IMG/VR virus record: IMGVR_UViG_3300032296_003505
Location: 1-24,323 of that record
DNA length: 24,323 bases
From: a virus
Strand: one strand, 5' to 3'
Position numbers and translations under genes: made by a program. Below, piece by piece: positions 7,258 through 24,323 of the stretch. Position 1 is the first letter of the stretch. The number at the start of each line of letters is the position of its first letter. The notes beneath the pieces were generated by a model that saw only the letters and a program-made list of their open reading frames with translations, was not told where the DNA came from and ran no database searches.

Positions 7258-9660
7258 ATGGCAGTTACTCAGAAACTTGTAACAACTAATTTTAATGTAG
7301 AAAGTGCAACGAGCTTTGTAAGTTCTTTTGCCAACAACGATTACTTTGTCTTTGCTGGTAAGCATACTCCATATCCTGGAAGCGATTCTGTTATCACAAC
7401 TCCAAATAATAGTGTAAAGTCTATTAGTCTTGATGCTTATGATAATATGATCTTTGCAAAAAGAATTTCTTCAAGCGATGTTGTCCACATGATTCCAAGG
7501 TATCTTTGGTCAGCAAATACTTTTTATTACAAATATGATCATCGCGATGGTGATCTTTTCGAAAAACCGTTTTATACAGTAGTAGATGAAAGTACTGAAT
7601 ATAATGTGTATAAGTGCTTGTTCAATGCAAGTAATACTACAATAAATGTAAATTCTACTGTTGCGCCATCTGTAAAAACATTAGATCCAATTGTAACAGG
7701 TGATGGATATATTTGGAAGTACATGTATAGTATTTCCAAAACACAGTACGAAAAGTTTTCTACAACAAATTACATTCCTGTAATTGCAAACACCACAGTC
7801 CAAGCAGGGGCGGTAAATGGAACAATTGAAGTAATTGATATTGTTACCACCGGCCAAGGATATAATAATTATATTGACAATGGTGTATTCACCACTACCA
7901 ATCTTTCAATTGGTGGTGGTGTTAACACTATCTATGGCGCACCTGATGATGCAGAAGCTGAAGATGATTACTACCGTGGATGTGTAATCAAGATTACTAA
8001 TTCGACTGCTGGTGCTGCTGGACAATATCGTCGTATTGTTGACTATCGTGGTGTCGACGGTCCAAAGATCTTTATACTTGATGCACCATTTTCACCAGCT
8101 CCCGCCGCGGGCGACGAGTATGAGGTATATCCTTACGTATATGTCTGGGGTGATGGAACTGAAAGCACTGCAGCTGAAGGTCGTGCCATTATCGATTCTA
8201 CAGCAAACTCAATTGTAGAAATTGAAATGTTAAGTGTTGGCGCTAACTATCGTTATGGTGAAGCATATTCTGGTAAAACTCCGGATACAATTCCTATTAC
8301 TATTAATAGTGCTTTCATTGATCTTCCTGCATCCATTCAAAATGCACCTGGATTTGTCGCCGCTACTTTACAACCAATTATTTCTCCACCGGGTGGTCAT
8401 GGATCGAATCCACTAAAAGAACTCGGTGCACGAAGAGTATGTATCAGTACCAAGTTTAATAATAGTGAAGCCGGTACAATTCCAGTTCAAAATGATTTTC
8501 GCCAAGTTGGAATCATTAAAAATCCTCTCTATACAAATGTAGATATTATTCTTCGTGCAGCAAATACCAGTTCTGGAAGCTTTAACATTGGTGAAACAGT
8601 TCACCAGTTTAAACAGTACAAGCTACTTGGTAATGTCTCAGTAACAACGTCAAGCAATACAATTAAGAAGACAGAACAAGGCCGCATCTCTCCAACGGCG
8701 ATCATTGTAAATGCTGGCACTGGATATGATAATACAGATGTTGTTTCTGTAAATAATACCGGAACTGGTGGATCGGGGCTTGCCGCAAATATTAGTACAA
8801 ATGGTTCAGGCGTAATTACAACTGTAAACGTAACCAACCTAGGTAATAATTACATTACCGTACCGACTCTGTCAATTACATCACCTGGCGGTGGTTCGAA
8901 TGGTCAACTGGCGGTTGTTCTTGCCAATCCACAAACACCAACATTCAAAGATAGTTTTAGAGTTGGTGATTATGTACTTGTGACTAAGGGAAGTAACAAT
9001 TACCTGACTACAGTAAGTAACATTCCTTACGATTATCAAATTACAGCTTCTACTAATTCTACATTTATTGCTGATAACTGCGAAATTTCAGCATTGGTAT
9101 TACAGGCATCTGGTGAAGTAACATCTATAAGCGGTAGCCAAATTACTCTTTCAAATGTTTCTGGAGTCTTTACTGAAGAATCTAAAGTTATTGGTCTTAC
9201 ATCGGGTGTAACCAGTATTATTGAATCAACGGCTGTTACTACACCACAAGCTGCAATTCAGGTAAATGATAAAGCAGCTGGATCTTTTAGTACAGCTGTT
9301 CAGTTAACCAGACTTATTGGTAACTTTCCAGGTGGGCCTGGCGGGTCATTCCTTGAAGATGAAGTAGTTCAGCAAAACAGCTTGATTTCATTTGCTCAAC
9401 CACGTGGAGCTTTCCACCATATTAACATTGTGGGTGGAACAGATAATGACGAAATGTTCATTAGCAACAAGTTCGGAATTTATAATCTAAACCGAGACGT
9501 GGTTGGAGTCACTTCTGGTGCTAGACTTCAGAATTTAAGTAATAAATATCCTGGAGACTTTGTTGTTGATAGTGGTGAAGTGATCTATATTGAAAACATA
9601 GATCCAATTACACGAAGCGGTAACAAATCAGAAATAGTCAAGATTATCTTGGAGTTTTAA
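7258..9660 (+). CDS. 8: gp8-like baseplate wedge protein with large internal insertion
   Basis: The T4 gp8 wedge protein (334 residues) can be recognised in blocks across this 800-residue product. Residues about 148-160 read GDGYIWKYMYSIS, like GDGYVWEYLFEIP in T4. NDFRQVGIIKNPLY near 411-424 parallels GFRQISIITNPL. The C-terminus from about 765 (DFVVDSGEVIYIEN) parallels DLMRHSGEMIYMEN, and both proteins end in a short hydrophobic I-x-F-like tail. Extra sequence is inserted after the first block (about 175-385, with AxSVGANYRYG-type turns) and, more strikingly, about 340 residues between NPLY and the C-terminal block, rich in AGTGY and GNNY turns. SD-like GAGGAA precedes the ATG, which abuts the previous TAA. 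gp8 in T4 links gp7, gp10 and gp6 in the wedge; the same placement is likely here. Confidence 0.88.
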   Translation: MAVTQKLVTTNFNVESATSFVSSFANNDYFVFAGKHTPYPGSDSVITTPNNSVKSISLDAYDNMIFAKRISSSDVVHMIPRYLWSANTFYYKYDHRDGDLFEKPFYTVVDESTEYNVYKCLFNASNTTINVNSTVAPSVKTLDPIVTGDGYIWKYMYSISKTQYEKFSTTNYIPVIANTTVQAGAVNGTIEVIDIVTTGQGYNNYIDNGVFTTTNLSIGGGVNTIYGAPDDAEAEDDYYRGCVIKITNSTAGAAGQYRRIVDYRGVDGPKIFILDAPFSPAPAAGDEYEVYPYVYVWGDGTESTAAEGRAIIDSTANSIVEIEMLSVGANYRYGEAYSGKTPDTIPITINSAFIDLPASIQNAPGFVAATLQPIISPPGGHGSNPLKELGARRVCISTKFNNSEAGTIPVQNDFRQVGIIKNPLYTNVDIILRAANTSSGSFNIGETVHQFKQYKLLGNVSVTTSSNTIKKTEQGRISPTAIIVNAGTGYDNTDVVSVNNTGTGGSGLAANISTNGSGVITTVNVTNLGNNYITVPTLSITSPGGGSNGQLAVVLANPQTPTFKDSFRVGDYVLVTKGSNNYLTTVSNIPYDYQITASTNSTFIADNCEISALVLQASGEVTSISGSQITLSNVSGVFTEESKVIGLTSGVTSIIESTAVTTPQAAIQVNDKAAGSFSTAVQLTRLIGNFPGGPGGSFLEDEVVQQNSLISFAQPRGAFHHINIVGGTDNDEMFISNKFGIYNLNRDVVGVTSGARLQNLSNKYPGDFVVDSGEVIYIENIDPITRSGNKSEIVKIILEF
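9541..9548 (+). promoter_or_regulatory. Candidate late promoter motif (AATAAATA) before the DUF4815 gene
   Basis: AATAAATA located 124 bases before the start at 9665, inside the end of the gp8-like gene. It fits NATAAATA; the distance is longer than ideal and a chance match is possible. Confidence 0.18.
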
Positions 9661-17204: not shown

Positions 17205-17413
17205 TGTTAGTAAACACTAATCATCCAGGCTATATAAAAGATACTGAAACTGGAGTGATCATAAATACTAACGAAGAAGAATATAAAAAATTCTTAGCTG
17301 CAAGAGATGCAAGTAAAAAGAATCATAGTTTGTGTAAAAGAATGACTGAAGTAGAGAATGAACTCGGCGAAATCAAGTCTCTTTTATTACAGTTAGTACA
17401 CAGGAATAATTAA
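17204..17413 (+). CDS. Conserved 69-residue phage protein with C-terminal coiled coil
   Basis: This short protein starts MLVNTNHPGYIKDTETGVII, then NTNEEEYKKFLAARD, and ends in a helix with a heptad-like pattern (MTEVENELGEIKSLLLQLVH) suited to a short coiled coil. Similar small proteins with the NHPGYIKD...GVIINTN opening occur beside structural genes in marine T4-like phages as far as I recall; no function is established to my knowledge. GGAG about 10 bases upstream and the TAATG overlap support this start, and the stop again overlaps the next ATG. It could be a small assembly or trimerisation factor for the adjacent fibre, but that is inference only. Confidence 0.75.
   Translation: MLVNTNHPGYIKDTETGVIINTNEEEYKKFLAARDASKKNHSLCKRMTEVENELGEIKSLLLQLVHRNN
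17260..17267 (+). promoter_or_regulatory. Weak late promoter-like motif (CATAAATA) before the repeat fibre gene
   Basis: CATAAATA fits NATAAATA and lies 153 bases before the fibre start at 17413, inside the 69-residue gene. The distance is long and the match may be chance. Confidence 0.14.
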
Positions 17414-19716
17414 TGGCAAGACAAGTAGCTAACGTTGATATCATTACCGATAGCTTTGAAGTCTGGTTACTTCAGACAAACGAGCTGCTGAATGCTTTCT
17501 CAACGGAAATCATCACTGCCAACACGACTGTAGCGAATACTGGTAACTCGACGATTAGTCGTACCGCTCAGCTATGGGGTACATTTGGATCAAATAACGT
17601 TGTAGTTACTAATGCACTGCGTGGTGGCAACGTTAACGGTCTATCAGCAAATCTTGTTATTACTACGAATGCAACTGCCTATGTTGCTGCAGATGCCGGC
17701 ATTCGTGTTCTGGTCGGCAACAGCACGTCGAACAGCTTCATGAGTCCACTTGGTGTACATCTTGGCTTGGGAACTGCTAATTCTGTTGTAAACAGTAGTC
17801 TGATTATAACACAATCTAGTAGTACTGTCAACACGAATATTTCACCAACACGCATTCAAGTTGCAGATAGTACAACTACTGCAAATATGACTGCTAATGC
17901 TTTTAGCACCGGTTTGTTTGTTGGTAATACCACAATGGTGGCTATTGGTGCAAATGTGTTTGCAAATGCTACAACACTCTATGTTGGCAACTCGACGTTT
18001 GATAGTGCATTCGGCAACGGATCATGGACCGGTATTGCAAACCTAGTAATCACACCAACAAGTCATCTGACAATCGCTGGTGCTGCTAACGTAACATCGA
18101 ATGCTAACTTTGCAAATACAATTGATGTAACTGGCGCTGCAACACTGTCAAATACATTAACAGTTACCGGATTAACGACATTAAACGGTAACATGAATAC
18201 TCCAACAGCCAATGCAACCACGGCAATGAACGTTGGCGGTAACGTTAATCTGACAACAACTAGAATTACGGTTGGCACCGCAACAGTCAACACTTTCATT
18301 ACCTCGACTGCAATTGAAACTGATGGTACGCTAACGGTAAATGGTGCGGCATCAATGGCCAACACGCTTGTTGTGTCTGGTGCTGCTAACGTTCTTAGTA
18401 CTTTTGGTATAACTGGCGCTGCTAATGCTCTTAGTACTCTTGGTGTAACCGGCGCAGTTAACCTGGCAAACACACTTGGCGTTGTAGGTGCAACAACACT
18501 ATCAAATACATTAACAGTTACTGGTTTAACATCATTAAACGGTAACATGAATACGCCGACAGCTAACGCGACTACAGCAATCAATGTCGGTGCAAATGTT
18601 AACTTAACAACAACAAGTATTACTGTTGGTACCAGCGGTAGTAATACGTTTATTACAGCCGGAACTATCGATACAGATGGCACACTGGCCGTACTTGGCA
18701 CGACAACACTATCAAATACATTAACAGTTACTGGCAATGCTACACTTTCAAACACATTAAGTGTAGTCGGTGCGGCAAATCTTGCTAGTACTTTGGGTGT
18801 AGTCGGTGCTGTAACGTTATCAAATACACTTACTGTTACCGGACTTACAACATTAAACGGTAACATGAACACGCCGACAGCTAACGCAACTACGGCAGTC
18901 AATGTTGGTGCTAACGTTAATCTGACAACAACTAGAATTACGGTTGGTACCAGCGGCAGTAATACGTTTATCACTGCTGGAGCTATCGATACTGATGGTA
19001 CACTTGATGTAGCTGGTGCTACAACACTTTCAAATACTTTGACTGTAGCTGGTTTAGCATCACTGAATGGTAATGTAAATACTCCAACAGCCAACGCAAC
19101 CACGGCAATGAACGTTGGTGCCAATGTTAACTTAACAACAACAAGAATTACAGTCGGCAACGCATCAGTCAATACTTTCATTACCTCAACAGCAATCGAG
19201 ACTGACGGCACTCTAACCGCAAACGGTGCAACATCATTAGCTAATACTCTTGGTGTGGCTGGTGCTACAACTCTTTCGAATACTTTAAGTGTTGCTGGCC
19301 AGACAAACGTATTAACCACATTTGGTGTTGGCGGCGCAACTACTCTTGCCGGCACTCTTTCTGTCGGTGGTGTAACCACACTGCAAAACGAATACGTGAT
19401 TGATGTTTCTGCAAATGGAAACATCGGGACTACTATTGGGCCTGTTCTAGTTTACAGATTCCCGAAGGCCTCTTTCTCATCTGGTAAGTTCGAAGTTCAG
19501 GTGAAGAACGGTAACACTCAGCTTTCTGAACTAGTTCTTGCTCACGATGGTGGACTGAATGCTTTCGTAACAACATACGGTACTGTAGCTTCAAACGGCG
19601 CATCTTCTCCGTTAGGCACGTTTTCTGCAAACACAGACACGGCTAATGTAAATCTATATCTTGTACAGACTGTGGCAAACTCGGCGGTCAAAGTTGTAGC
19701 TCATCTAATTAAGTAA
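17413..19716 (+). CDS. Beta-repeat tail fibre protein
   Basis: This 767-residue product has a three-part fibre layout. The N-terminus ([20 protein letters not shown], then IITANTT) resembles the virion-attachment start seen in marine phage fibres. Residues about 229-652 are nested repeats: 12-residue units of [12 protein letters not shown] type alternate with four 58-residue blocks starting [19 protein letters not shown]. The C-terminus ([46 protein letters not shown]) matches a conserved distal domain of marine myovirus fibres. The sequence is rich in Thr, Asn, Ala and Gly, as expected for a trimeric beta shaft. The SD-like AGGA lies 8 bases before the ATG, and the start overlaps the previous stop. 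It is probably a long structural fibre used in host recognition; the receptor is unknown. Confidence 0.85.
18097..19368 (+). repeat. Nested 36-bp and 174-bp coding repeats
   Basis: Four 174-bp blocks (58 residues, each starting GL[TA][TS]LNGN) lie at 18169-18342, 18523-18696, 18841-19014 and 19051-19224. The spaces between them are filled exactly by 36-bp units (12 residues, G-[AVNTQ]-x-x-L-x-x-T-L/F-x-V-x): two before the first block, then five, four and one between blocks, and four after the last. No leftover bases remain. The different unit numbers suggest gain and loss by recombination between copies. Confidence 0.9.
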
Positions 19717-19723
19717 GGTTGAC

Positions 19724-21109
19724 ATGGCAAATACAAATTTTAAAGTAGATAATGGACTTCTAGTAACAGGCGGGGATTCGCTATTCCAGGCAAATGTTAC
19801 TGTGAATGCGCATGTTCTTGTCAGACAGACACTTGCAGTCAACGGAGATCTTACGGTCACCGGCAATCTTACATTCAATAATACTTCAATCAGTGGTGAA
19901 TTAATTCCAACTGCAAATGGTGTTCTTCTTGGTAATACTACAAGAACATTCACGATATCTGCAGACAATGTAAGTCTTTCGAATTCTATTGTGAATGCTA
20001 ACGGAACACAGATTAACATTCGTGCTCTATCTGGTGTTGTAGCAAACAGTTCTGGTCTGACCGTTAATGCTTCGGCGATTTCAAATGGTGTATTGAATAT
20101 TGGCCAGGGCGGTACAAACGCAACAACTCGTGATGCTGGTCTAAACAATCTTCTACCAACACAGAATGTTGCTGTCTCCGGCTATTATCTAAGAACAAAT
20201 GGTTCAAATACTTCTTGGGTAGATGGAATTGGTTTTACTGGATCACGTGGTGCTACTGGATTCACCGGATCTGTCGGTGCCCAGGGTTCGCAGGGTCCAA
20301 TTGGATTCACTGGATCTGCCGGTATTAATGGCACTAATGGTGCGGCCGGTCCTACTGGATCAATCGGTCCTACTGGTCCTCAGGGAGCTCAGGGCCCAAT
20401 TGGATTCACTGGATCTGCCGGTATTAATGGCACCAATGGAGCTCCAGGACCGACGGGTCTAACAGGACCACAGGGTGCTACTGGTCCGCAGGGTCCAATT
20501 GGATTTACTGGTTCAGCTGGTATTAATGGAACAAACGGTGCAACTGGCCCTACAGGTCCAACAGGACCACAGGGTGCTACTGGACCGCAGGGTTCAATTG
20601 GATTTACAGGTTCTCAGGGAGCACAAGGACCACAGGGAGCTCAGGGCCTACAGGGACCGGCAGGACCTGTAGGACCGGTTGGTCCTCAAGGAGCTCAGGG
20701 CCCTCAAGGAACACAGGGTCCAATCGGATTTACAGGTTCTCAGGGAGCACAAGGACCACAAGGAGCTCAGGGACCACAAGGCGCCCAAGGTCCACAGGGT
20801 GCTCAGGGCGCCCAGGGTCCAATTGGATTTACAGGATCTCAAGGTGCTCAGGGACCACAGGGACCACAGGGTCTACAAGGACCGGCCGGACCGGCAGGAC
20901 CGGCAGGACCAGCGGGCCCCGCTGGTCCGCAAGGACCACAGGGTGCACAGGGCGCGACCGGCTTCACAGGATCTCAAGGAAATCCTGCATCTGCCGCTGC
21001 TCCAATTCTTCGTCACGTGACCGGTGGATATACCGGAGGCGGACAGGTGTTTGTGTCTGGATCAGCTCCAACCGCTTCGGCTGCTGGTGACATTTGGATT
21101 CAAATCTAA
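19724..21109 (+). CDS. Collagen-like tail fibre protein
   Basis: This 461-residue product has a beta-type N-terminal region ([40 protein letters not shown]) related in style to the 17413 fibre. [20 protein letters not shown] motif near residues 127-145 is like the GGTGATTAAGA-type motif common in phage fibres. Residues 170-421 form an uninterrupted collagen-like G-X-Y domain of 84 triplets. A short C-terminal tail ends [17 protein letters not shown]. Phage collagen-like segments are known to form rigid triple-helical rods, so this is probably a trimeric fibre shaft with a small tip. The ATG follows the previous stop by 7 bases with TAAGG overlapping that stop. The stop overlaps the next start in TAATG. 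Confidence 0.88.
20231..20986 (+). repeat. Collagen-like G-X-Y domain, 84 triplets, 99-bp higher period
   Basis: All 84 triplets keep glycine with no break. The higher-order unit G-[PS]-I-GFTGS recurs every 99 bp (11 triplets) at 20297, 20396, 20495 and about 20594, with two more copies later at altered spacing. By my count Thr fills the Y position in 20 triplets and Gln in 35. Thr is concentrated in the first half and Gln in the second. The only charged residue in the domain is the Arg of triplet 2. Confidence 0.95.
20906..20928 (+). other. Perfect 10-bp GC-rich inverted repeat inside the collagen region
   Basis: The arms GGACCAGCGG (20906-20915) and CCGCTGGTCC (20919-20928) are exactly complementary around a GCC loop. 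The repeat encodes part of the GPAGPAGPQ run. No T-tract follows, so it is not a standard terminator. It may be a by-product of Gly-Pro-Ala codons. Confidence 0.6.
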
Positions 21110-22250: not shown

Positions 22251-22892
22251 TCATCCTGCAAACGCAAAGATGGTATCATCACCGATCGTGTCAATAATTC
22301 TATAATTGAATCTATCTTCAAGTATATCAAGAACGTCTTCGTTGTCGTGCTTTCTTTCACAGCTAATGATTGGATGATATTGTTTAATGGTTTGTTCCGC
22401 TCCAATAAGAGCGTATCTCTCATAACCTTCAATATCCAGTTGCATGAATCCACAGTCTTTTAAAGCTAATGAGTCAATAGTTACTGTCGGAATTTTAGAT
22501 CCTTCAACAACTCTTCCCATTCCTCTGTTATGATTACATAGACTAATGGCATCAACCAACCCCGGTTTTTCACCGAGAGCAGCTTGCATCTTTATAATGT
22601 TTTCTTTCTGGCAGTTGTTCACCAAACAAAAGAAGTGCAGCGGATCTGGCTCAAAAGTATAGACCATATCAAAATGTTCTGATAGAAGCCGTGGATACAT
22701 ACCCTGAAGTCCACCAGCCTGAATGCAAACACTTCTATTGGTCACGTGTTTAAGCCAACAATCTCGATGGCCATTTAGCCAATCTTCCTTGGGCCAACGA
22801 AAACCTTCCCAGTCTTCTGCAATCCAAAGCCACGGTCCAATATTATCAATTTTTTCATGGACAACGTGAAAGAGATGATGATATTCACGCAT
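22251..22892 (-). CDS. FkbM-like SAM-dependent methyltransferase
   Basis: The product (213 residues from the ATG at 22892) has the FkbM-family order: a cofactor-binding motif I at 56-64 (CIQAGGLQG), VYTFEPDP at 77-84, and TIDSLALKDCGFMQLDIEGY from about 138, where D153, E155 and E158 match the usual D-x-E-G-x-E. FkbM enzymes typically O-methylate sugars or polyketides. Motif I lacks the usual Asp, having Q58 instead; I recall this IQAGG form in marine viral relatives. I prefer 22892 to the more upstream ATG at 22940 because it overlaps the stop of the preceding glycosyltransferase by 8 bases and has an AGGA upstream, while the longer start lies deep in that gene without one. It probably methylates a glycan made by the two neighbouring transferases. 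Confidence 0.85.
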   Translation of the reverse strand: MREYHHLFHVVHEKIDNIGPWLWIAEDWEGFRWPKEDWLNGHRDCWLKHVTNRSVCIQAGGLQGMYPRLLSEHFDMVYTFEPDPLHFFCLVNNCQKENIIKMQAALGEKPGLVDAISLCNHNRGMGRVVEGSKIPTVTIDSLALKDCGFMQLDIEGYERYALIGAEQTIKQYHPIISCERKHDNEDVLDILEDRFNYRIIDTIGDDTIFAFAG

Positions 22893-23511
22893 TTGGAATG
22901 TTATCCTGCCATTCGAATTTATTAGTTTTAAGCTCAACATGCATAGTGGTTGAACCGATATGACCGCAAAGGATCGAAGGATCGCACCAGAGCTTGAATC
23001 CCTTGTTCATTGCTTTCTTACAGAAGTCTGTGTCTTCACTAATCGTGTTGCCATGATCGAGTGCTGGATGATACTCAAACTGCGGATAACCAATTCCTGC
23101 AATCACCTCTTTCTTAACAAGAACACAACCGAATCCACAACCACCGATTGGAACCAGTGGTTGACCATAGATCTGTTCGATCGTCATACGCTGTTGGTTT
23201 AAATCGTAGATCTCAATTGCCTGCGGCTCAAGTCTCTGACGATACACCCCGGCCACAAGATCCACATCATGGGTTAGCAGTTTCTTCAATGTGTCAGGAG
23301 GAAACGTGATATCATGATCTACCGAGAACAGGTAATCGTATCCACGAACGACCCAGTCACAGATCAGATTACGAACCTGATCGACTCGATATCCATAGAA
23401 GTATTGAAAGGTCGTTTCATATCCTTCTGGAATTTCCAAGTCATAGATTGACTTAAACGTATCTGCCTCGATATAACGAGCAGTAGGAATTGCAATTAGG
23501 ATCTTTTTCAT
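22885..23511 (-). CDS. GT-A type glycosyltransferase
   Basis: This 208-residue protein has a compact GT-A layout. The N-terminal strand KKILIAIPTAR replaces the usual PxYN start. SVDHDITFPPDTL at 63-75 gives the metal/nucleotide-sugar D-x-D (D65, D67). A D-V-D-L-V-A-G-V-Y-R-Q-R stretch follows at 82-93, then a GGCGFGCVLVKKEV block. SEDTDFCKKAMNKGFKLWCD near 158-177 contains the likely catalytic acid region (E159, D160), followed by a C-G-H-I-G (182-186). Similar short transferases occur in large marine phages. Its start overlaps the stop of the upstream GT2 gene in ATGA, and its end overlaps the FkbM gene, so all three are probably one transcript. The sugar and acceptor cannot be read from sequence. 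Confidence 0.85.
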   Translation of the reverse strand: MKKILIAIPTARYIEADTFKSIYDLEIPEGYETTFQYFYGYRVDQVRNLICDWVVRGYDYLFSVDHDITFPPDTLKKLLTHDVDLVAGVYRQRLEPQAIEIYDLNQQRMTIEQIYGQPLVPIGGCGFGCVLVKKEVIAGIGYPQFEYHPALDHGNTISEDTDFCKKAMNKGFKLWCDPSILCGHIGSTTMHVELKTNKFEWQDNIPNA

Positions 23512-24323
23512 AACGGTCTCAAATCAATCTGTCCTGGGATAAACGGAGAATTATTTAGTACCTTGGCAGCAGTCTTATTCTGTTCTTCTGCATTTACTTT
23601 ATAATCATTCAGTGGATTTGCATCGTTGTAATGATACACAATATCAGGAATGCAAACAACTCTATCTGGTTCTGCTGCTTCAATCATCGCATAGAATACC
23701 GCAGTATCACCACCGGCCTTTAGCCAATTCCCATTCTCATCTTTAAAGGCTGAATCGCCGTGAGCGGCAAGATGATATCTCATAAGATGAGCACTGAACG
23801 TACGCAGGTGAGTGTATGGCATGTTCCAGTTAAACTTATAATTACGATAAGCTCTATTTGCTTTCACTTCCTGAGGATATTCTTGAGCAATCAAAGGAAT
23901 GTTATCTACTACTGACCAACACGATCCGTAGGTAAATTCTGCTCCATCATTATAGATGTTATTGTACTTATCAAAGAGACTTGGATCGTTGACAAGCCAA
24001 TCATCACCATCAAGAAGCATAATAATATCAGAACTGTACTGACTCGCAATATTTTTTACTTGGTTCGCTACAGCACCACAATTTTGTTCGTTGCTAATAA
24101 CAATAAACTTTCCTTGAATCTCTTGTGGTAATCTATCGATGACCTGACACGCAATCTTATGTGTATCATCTGTCGAGTTATCGTCGATGATATACATCTC
24201 ATAGTTTGAATAATTTTGTTGAGCAACCGAAAGAATGCATCGCTCAATATATTTTTCAGCGTTATAGACAGGTGTGACTACAATAATAGTATTTTCATCA
24301 TTCTTTGGTTCTACTATCTCTTC
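23508..24323 (-). CDS. GT2 family glycosyltransferase, 5' end outside the window
   Basis: The frame stays open to the right edge, so the gene extends beyond the in-frame ATG at 24197. That ATG falls inside the fold and is not the true start. The 271 visible residues begin with a short linker, then TIIVVTPVYNAEKYIERCIL (12-31), the classic GT2 nucleotide-binding start, DDNSTDDT at 47-54 and LLDGDDW at 103-109 with the D-x-D metal site. A later block AGGDTAVFYAMIEAAEP is consistent with the acceptor-side/catalytic region. The final part (VVCIPDIVYHYNDANPLNDY) is typical of viral GT2 enzymes. It is the most upstream visible gene of a leftward operon and overlaps the next gene by ATGA. Whether another domain lies before residue 1 cannot be seen. 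Confidence 0.88.
   Translation of the reverse strand, partial: EEIVEPKNDENTIIVVTPVYNAEKYIERCILSVAQQNYSNYEMYIIDDNSTDDTHKIACQVIDRLPQEIQGKFIVISNEQNCGAVANQVKNIASQYSSDIIMLLDGDDWLVNDPSLFDKYNNIYNDGAEFTYGSCWSVVDNIPLIAQEYPQEVKANRAYRNYKFNWNMPYTHLRTFSAHLMRYHLAAHGDSAFKDENGNWLKAGGDTAVFYAMIEAAEPDRVVCIPDIVYHYNDANPLNDYKVNAEEQNKTAAKVLNNSPFIPGQIDLRPL

Follow-up and report, generated by a model that had tools for sequence, protein, structure and literature searches.

The window, by which we mean the whole stretch of DNA analysed here, is a virus record of 24,323 bases that includes a baseplate region of the T4-like type. In this region, gp25, gp6 and gp7-like and gp8-like wedge proteins are followed by two VrlC-family ORFs, of which P0003 lies directly upstream of the gene under study, P0001 (Table 1). 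P0001 is followed by P0002, which encodes a collagen-like fibre, and small fibre-assembly-like ORFs also occur in the window beside these two genes. On the minus strand at 22251–24323, methyltransferase and glycosyltransferase-like genes adjoin the fibre genes, an arrangement also described for the host recognition clusters of pelagimyophages (PMC7029224). The closest matches of the window gp6 are those of Caulobacter phage Cr30 (37%) and Sinorhizobium phages, too distant for naming a host, and a scan of genome contigs for the host found no relative.

Table 1. Features of P0001 and its neighbour genes in the window.
Feature	Position	Strand	Evidence
P0003, VrlC-family baseplate protein, directly upstream of P0001	15105..17204	+	tblastn to VrlC of Sinorhizobium phages and Caulobacter phage Cr30; conserved synteny
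P0001, whole gene, 767-aa rod/connector protein	17413..19716	+	ORF; N-terminus conserved across homologues (some 60 distinct members of the family)
N-terminal region, aa 1–226, presumed baseplate-attaching	17413..18090	+	alignment with relatives; attachment role inferred
12-aa units 1–2	18091..18162	+	array tiling
58-aa block 1	18163..18336	+	array tiling
12-aa units 3–7 (five)	18337..18516	+	array tiling
58-aa block 2	18517..18690	+	array tiling
12-aa units 8–11 (four)	18691..18834	+	array tiling
58-aa block 3	18835..19008	+	array tiling
12-aa unit 12	19009..19044	+	array tiling
58-aa block 4	19045..19218	+	array tiling
12-aa units 13–17, last degenerate	19219..19398	+	array tiling
C-terminal 117 aa, predicted nine-stranded beta domain like the T4 gp9 C-domain; overlaps last unit	19363..19713	+	AF2, structure and profile matches
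P0002, collagen-like fibre, proposed partner of the P0001 C-domain	19724..21109	+	PF01391 E 1e-40; C-domain co-occurrence; ends compared

As a whole protein, P0001 has no match in INPHARED by tblastn and none in Pfam. A sequence search of the PDB gave no match for the whole protein, the N-terminus, the shaft or the C-terminus. PHROG 697 and 36281 match weakly, and their matches are located in the repeats.

The middle of P0001 is a gap-free array of 58-residue blocks (B, n=4) and 12-residue units (u, n=17). In its best register the array reads 2u-B-5u-B-4u-B-u-B-5u, that is, 17 units and four blocks spanning 436 aa at 18091–19398. The initial annotation had described sixteen units and four blocks at 18097–19368, tiling without leftover bases, with 2, 5, 4, 1 and 4 units around the blocks. 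The repeats are real, the tiling and the blocks are exact and the counts are unequal, but the units number 17, their partition is 2, 5, 4, 1, 5, and the natural register, which begins on V, lies a few residues off. Both the first unit (18091–18126) and the degenerate last unit (19363–19398) are counted into the array. The units score 15.7–23.6 bits with a self-built profile, whereas maxima for the shuffled rest of P0001 average 3.6 and reach 11.8 at the 99th percentile; the profile was trained on those same units, which overstates the significance. Glycine at unit position 3 is invariant (16/16 units), and T/L at positions 10/11 are nearly so. The idea that a block consists of five fused units found no support, as no 12-residue stretch within any block scores as a unit.

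The copies of the array have diverged. The window blocks share 67–84% DNA identity with one another, exact direct repeats within the shaft reach 36 nt at most, and Tandem Repeats Finder detects just one short stretch of the array (18377–18462) because the copies differ. The array is thus neither a recent expansion nor an obvious assembly collapse, and at this divergence a collapse of identical copies is unlikely. By comparing halves of blocks, we notice a mosaic pattern. Over their second halves, blocks 1 and 4 share 82% identity and blocks 2 and 3 share 83%, against 61–68% for other pairs; the first halves pair otherwise (blocks 1 and 3, 84%; blocks 2 and 3, 85%). A tree built from all blocks places the four blocks of the window in one cluster. 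The mosaic halves and this clustering are suggestive of recombination or conversion among copies within one lineage.

On the opposite strand, an antisense ORF of 453 aa (18063–19424, minus strand) runs through the repeats. Antisense stop-free runs of 195–437 codons occur also in relatives, so the ORF probably arises as a side effect of the codons used in the repeats.

The N-terminal region of P0001 is 76–90% identical in close relatives and 57% identical in a more diverged one (L023). One block-like segment locates at residues 155–212 of this region. The block and the N-terminal region have a short motif in common, GANV...VGNST (hhalign E 7.8e-5), and the blocks may for this reason share an origin with the N-terminal region.

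Regular, gap-free repeated units between conserved ends are expected of a modular phage fibre shaft, and P0001 shows this arrangement, which bears out the modular shaft proposed by the initial annotation for a fibre-type protein. A single-chain model of 106 aa around one block (pLDDT 83.8) is extended and has no intra-chain strands. Searching for the fold of the unit-block model gave no match in the PDB and, among viral models, just hits at E > 0.6. A strandless single chain fits a fold in which all hydrogen bonds are formed between chains, but also a poor model. In the beta-helix of T4 gp34, the main-chain hydrogen bonds are all between chains (PMC5537660). The extended, strandless model of P0001 resembles that beta-helix, and from this likeness we infer that units and blocks would form a three-chain beta rod. 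It is plausible that the 58-residue block marks a different fold or a knob along this rod.

The most informative part of P0001 is its C-terminal domain, which the fibre-shaft reading of the initial annotation, right about the shaft, had overlooked. AF2 with 29 sequences predicted nine strands for this domain at pLDDT 93.7. Superimposing the prediction on known structures with VIA-align placed T4 gp9 first (1qex_A residues 168–283; Z 13.0, rmsd 2.1 Å, 108/117 residues aligned), ahead of the C-terminus of an Acinetobacter tailspike (6e1r, Z 11.1), a Klebsiella phage baseplate-region chain (Z 9.9) and 6c72 (Z 9.1). T4 gp9 is also the top match in Foldseek (E 6.7e-4). At the level of sequence profiles, hhalign of the family C-domain with eight gp9 sequences aligned gp9 residues 178–247 (E 1e-5, probability 82). 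PHROG 967, annotated as ‘baseplate wedge tail fiber protein connector’, is matched by 7/29 C-domains of the family, with E 2.9e-8 at best, and also by L209, a short form of 206 aa. The same PHROG is matched by T4 gp9 (E 3e-149) and, over its full length, by YP_007006015 of cyanophage S-TIM5, to which the window C-terminus aligns in tblastn (44% over 56 aa, E 1e-3). The fold predicted for the C-domain is that of the gp9 fibre-binding domain, a strong match.

The window’s own C-domain alone matches neither PHROG 967 nor PF23618 (Pfam T4_gp9_10_C), and PF23618 is matched by 0/29 family C-domains. PF07880, the gp9/gp10 N-terminal domain, has no match in the window N-terminus, and hhalign of the P0001 N-terminal alignment with gp9 (probability 0.2) indicates no relation to the gp9 N-domain. 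P0001 has been left outside the gp9 family because this N-terminal domain was looked for and not found. Searching ten relatives’ records of 55–174 kb, possibly incomplete, for canonical gp9 (PF07880, PF23618) detected none; the window record itself is 24 kb. As controls, T4 and P-RSM3 were positive for PF07880 and T4 for PF23618. The C-domain profile is positive in 9/10 of the same relatives’ records.

Second copies of the gp9-like C-domain occur in other ORFs, one of 282 aa in the record of L134 (G001, 7607–7879) and one of 635 aa in the record of L188 (G003, 99909–100196); they are possible second connectors. In Prochlorococcus phage P-SSM2 (AY939844.2, 223411–223710, H119), a stretch of a ‘proximal tail fiber’ is 43% identical to the C-terminus of a cyanophage gp9, a further sign of gp9-type ends attached to long fibres.

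IMG/VR was scanned with the whole protein, both of its ends and the upstream P0003, yielding over 200 loci. Where P0003 is on a contig, a P0001-type gene comes next, approximately 200 nt on in the cases inspected. Family members keep the N-terminal motif, and most keep the C-terminal domain. The P0001 family represents previously unannotated, very variable proteins of T4-like environmental phages, for which a likely role can now be proposed, that of a gp9-type connector with its own rod of repeats. Five members (L137–L141) have the P0001 N-terminus and lack the gp9-like C-domain; most carry a WWIAMGF-type tip followed by a 122–123-aa ORF, perhaps a fibre chaperone.

The gene following P0001 is linked to the C-domain. 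At most loci, P0002-type genes (‘MANTxFKxxNGL...’) begin 7–11 nt past the P0001 gene. At the thresholds used, the C-domain and the fibre gene after it occur together in 41 of 61 loci, both are missing from 13, 7 have the C-domain only and none has the fibre only (Fisher p 1e-8; the loci are not independent). Four C-domain-only loci (L209, L213, L215, L220) have a diverged P0002 look-alike downstream. Speaking against the link, L200–L203 have a weak C-domain match and no P0002-type fibre downstream; three of them (L200, L202, L203) have a different, 109-aa ORF instead. Comparing P0002 among relatives L001–L023 revealed that its N-terminus is kept (34–87% identity over the first 165 aa) and its C-terminal tip exchanged; the tips include a GDIWIQI type, a type that resembles an S74 chaperone by eye, and others. 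The exchange of tips thus seems to happen in P0002 rather than in P0001. T4 gp9 binds gp7 through its N-domain, and its C-domain is the coaxial attachment point of the long tail fibre (PMC3004832). We propose by analogy that the C-domain of P0001 holds the N-terminus of P0002.

Taken together, the explanation we favour, with somewhat better than even confidence, is that P0001 is a gp9-like baseplate-to-fibre connector stretched by a trimeric beta rod, which carries P0002 and whose rod length is under selection in the clade of the window. The N-terminal region would anchor to the baseplate. The 17 units and four blocks would form a three-chain beta rod, thin at the stacked units and probably of another shape at the blocks, and the predicted gp9-like domain at its end would hold the collagen-like P0002 by its N-terminus, leaving the variable P0002 tip outermost. 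The array itself would change by in-frame recombination of modules, as module differences among relatives suggest, and by exchange of sequence between copies, to which the mosaic blocks of the window point. Selection on the distance between the baseplate and the outer fibre would keep the rod total constant.

This last step is prompted by the members whose N-termini are 76–90% identical, which we refer to as the window’s clade. Around their four blocks, the units are partitioned 2,5,4,1,5 in the window, 5,1,1,5,5 in L001, L011 and L014, and 7,2,1,5,2 in L003, L005 and L015, each summing to 17. The L010 rod is built of about 26 units, one half unit and two blocks, and comes to 434 aa; in all four make-ups the rod measures 434–436 aa. 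Outside the clade, L086 has the partition 5,1,1,5,5 and 436 aa when counted by units; its automatic boundary gives 450 aa because the N-terminus has diverged. Equal sums of three random partitions have p 0.005 (0.017 by permutation) under a rough, post hoc null applied to related lineages. That four of nine rods fall within 2 aa has p 0.0002–0.0003 on a continuous scale and 0.005 on a 12-aa grid, again post hoc. The coincidence suggests that overall rod length is more important than how its parts are ordered. A bolder reading, less likely than not, makes the rod a length-fixed spacer, whose array would reshuffle, duplicate and convert while selection holds the total at approximately 435 residues. 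If so, the rod would be a protein distance ruler made of interchangeable parts, running from the baseplate to the receptor-binding fibre, and the outer fibre in its gp9-type socket would sit at a fixed reach. With four make-ups of equal length, selection on fibre reach can be tested directly by counting.

On the other hand, the constant length may reflect shared descent only, from one 436-aa ancestor whose array was rearranged by recombination while its length was under no selection. We regard this as a serious possibility, though one short of an even chance. Such an ancestor accounts for part of the length coincidence, and the 5,1,1,5,5 partition of L086, elsewhere in the tree, may have been inherited from an ancestor or acquired by transfer. 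Rods of other lengths (130, 180, 222, 282 and 374 aa), moreover, occur in five further lineages. In the P0003 tree, the members with 434–436 aa do not form one group, and the branches with support require three changes or more; the neighbour of L010 is L019 (180 aa), and that of L086 is L023 (130 aa). From this scatter, the length was either regained or, more simply, kept from an early ancestor while the partition changed. However, ordinary repeat recombination does not preserve totals. Three different partitions of 17 units and four blocks, and the 434 aa of L010, would need compensating events to arise without a change of length.

A further alternative concerns the end of the rod rather than its length. 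P0001 could be an ordinary tail fibre or spike, with the C-domain as a free tip (a trimerisation or receptor-binding cap) and P0002 attached elsewhere. The same beta-domain fold caps the C-termini of the Acinetobacter phage tailspikes named above, and the members without the C-domain end in other tip-like sequences. However, gp9 is the best match both by fold and by sequence profile, and the C-domain co-occurs strongly with P0002. Moreover, the C-domain is conserved (72–89%), whereas a receptor-binding tip is expected to vary, as that of P0002 does. We therefore consider a free tip doubtful.

The initial annotation had envisaged a shaft that changes length by unit-sized steps, with variants in multiples of 36 bp, perhaps as a way to vary fibre length; such stepping could tune the reach of the fibre. 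In the family as a whole, length does vary by large modules. Members range from 166 to 1253 aa, and those with both ends from 206 to 1253 aa, so that the rod middle extends from almost nothing (206 aa in total, L209 and L215) to about 1,000 aa (1253 aa in total, L204 and L205). Whole modules also differ between close viruses. L105 and L106 are 96.9% identical in DNA and differ by exactly two 255-nt modules, the single module of L105 combining a part that resembles the first module of L106 with a part that resembles the third; L205 and L207 (95.7% identity) differ by 630 and 360 nt. These module differences carry a residual assembly caveat, as L106, L205 and L207 hold exact repeats of 86–113 nt. 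Near the window, no 36-nt difference separates the near-identical pairs L003/L004, L005/L015 and L014/L020, whose unit counts are kept, and an exact-match search for the window’s close relatives returned L014-type contigs only. No 36-bp variants were thus seen among the close relatives of the window, where the total rod length is held. We consider stepping by 36 bp improbable; the part of the claim that survives is change by whole modules across the family. In the literature searched, no paper dealt with phage fibre shafts that vary in length or in their number of repeats. With conserved ends and a rod varying to about 1,000 residues, the family offers a natural experiment on the effects of fibre length.

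L009 differs from L014 by a 129-nt in-frame deletion in the N-terminal region and a divergent stretch within the blocks, the genes being otherwise almost identical. L021 is 1060 aa long and contains five copies of an approximately 89-residue repeat, which includes the N-terminal block-like segment.

An assembly artefact is very improbable for the window, although it derives from a metagenome contig, repeats are known to endanger assembly and some relatives hold the long exact repeats given above, because its blocks differ by 16–33%, its longest exact repeat is short, and the same partition is found again in relatives from independent samples. Identical proteins were also recovered from separate samples in four sets (L001/L002; L005–L008; L012/L013; L017/L018/L071).

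Among known systems, T4 gp9 (PDB 1qex, 1S2E; PF07880 and PF23618; PHROG 967) resembles P0001 most closely in the C-terminal beta domain (Z 13.0, E 1e-5) and in the position of P0001 late in a baseplate gene cluster. It would also resemble P0001 in working, if P0001 holds the next fibre. In contrast to P0001, T4 gp9 has 288 aa and no repeat rod, and its N-terminal domain PF07880 was not found in P0001. In T4, gp9 comes directly after gp8, whereas in the window the two VrlC-type ORFs stand between gp8 and P0001. The S-TIM5 protein YP_007006015 (‘structural protein’, 564 aa) belongs to the gp9 PHROG like T4 gp9, in a gene neighbourhood unlike that of the window.

The Acinetobacter phage tailspikes 6e1r and 6c72 have a C-terminal beta domain similar to that of P0001 (Z 11.1 and 9.1). 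Unlike in P0001, it sits at the C-terminal end of tailspikes, 6c72 being of the capsule depolymerase type. As in the host recognition cluster of pelagimyophages and cyanomyophages (PMC7029224), variable fibre genes come right after VrlC, with glycosyltransferases near; the portion of that cluster description consulted contains no repeat rod or gp9-type end of the P0001 kind.

The proximal long tail fibre of T4, gp34 (PMC5537660), has no sequence match with P0001 in the PDB search. Its triple beta-helix lacks a clear sequence repeat, and it is attached via a separate gp9, in both respects unlike P0001. The proposed rod of P0001 would nevertheless follow a plan similar to that of gp34, in which three chains, hydrogen-bonded only to one another, make a thin beta rod that wider beta domains interrupt. 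The gp34 rod spans the distance from the baseplate side to the outer fibre (PMC5537660), as that of P0001 would.
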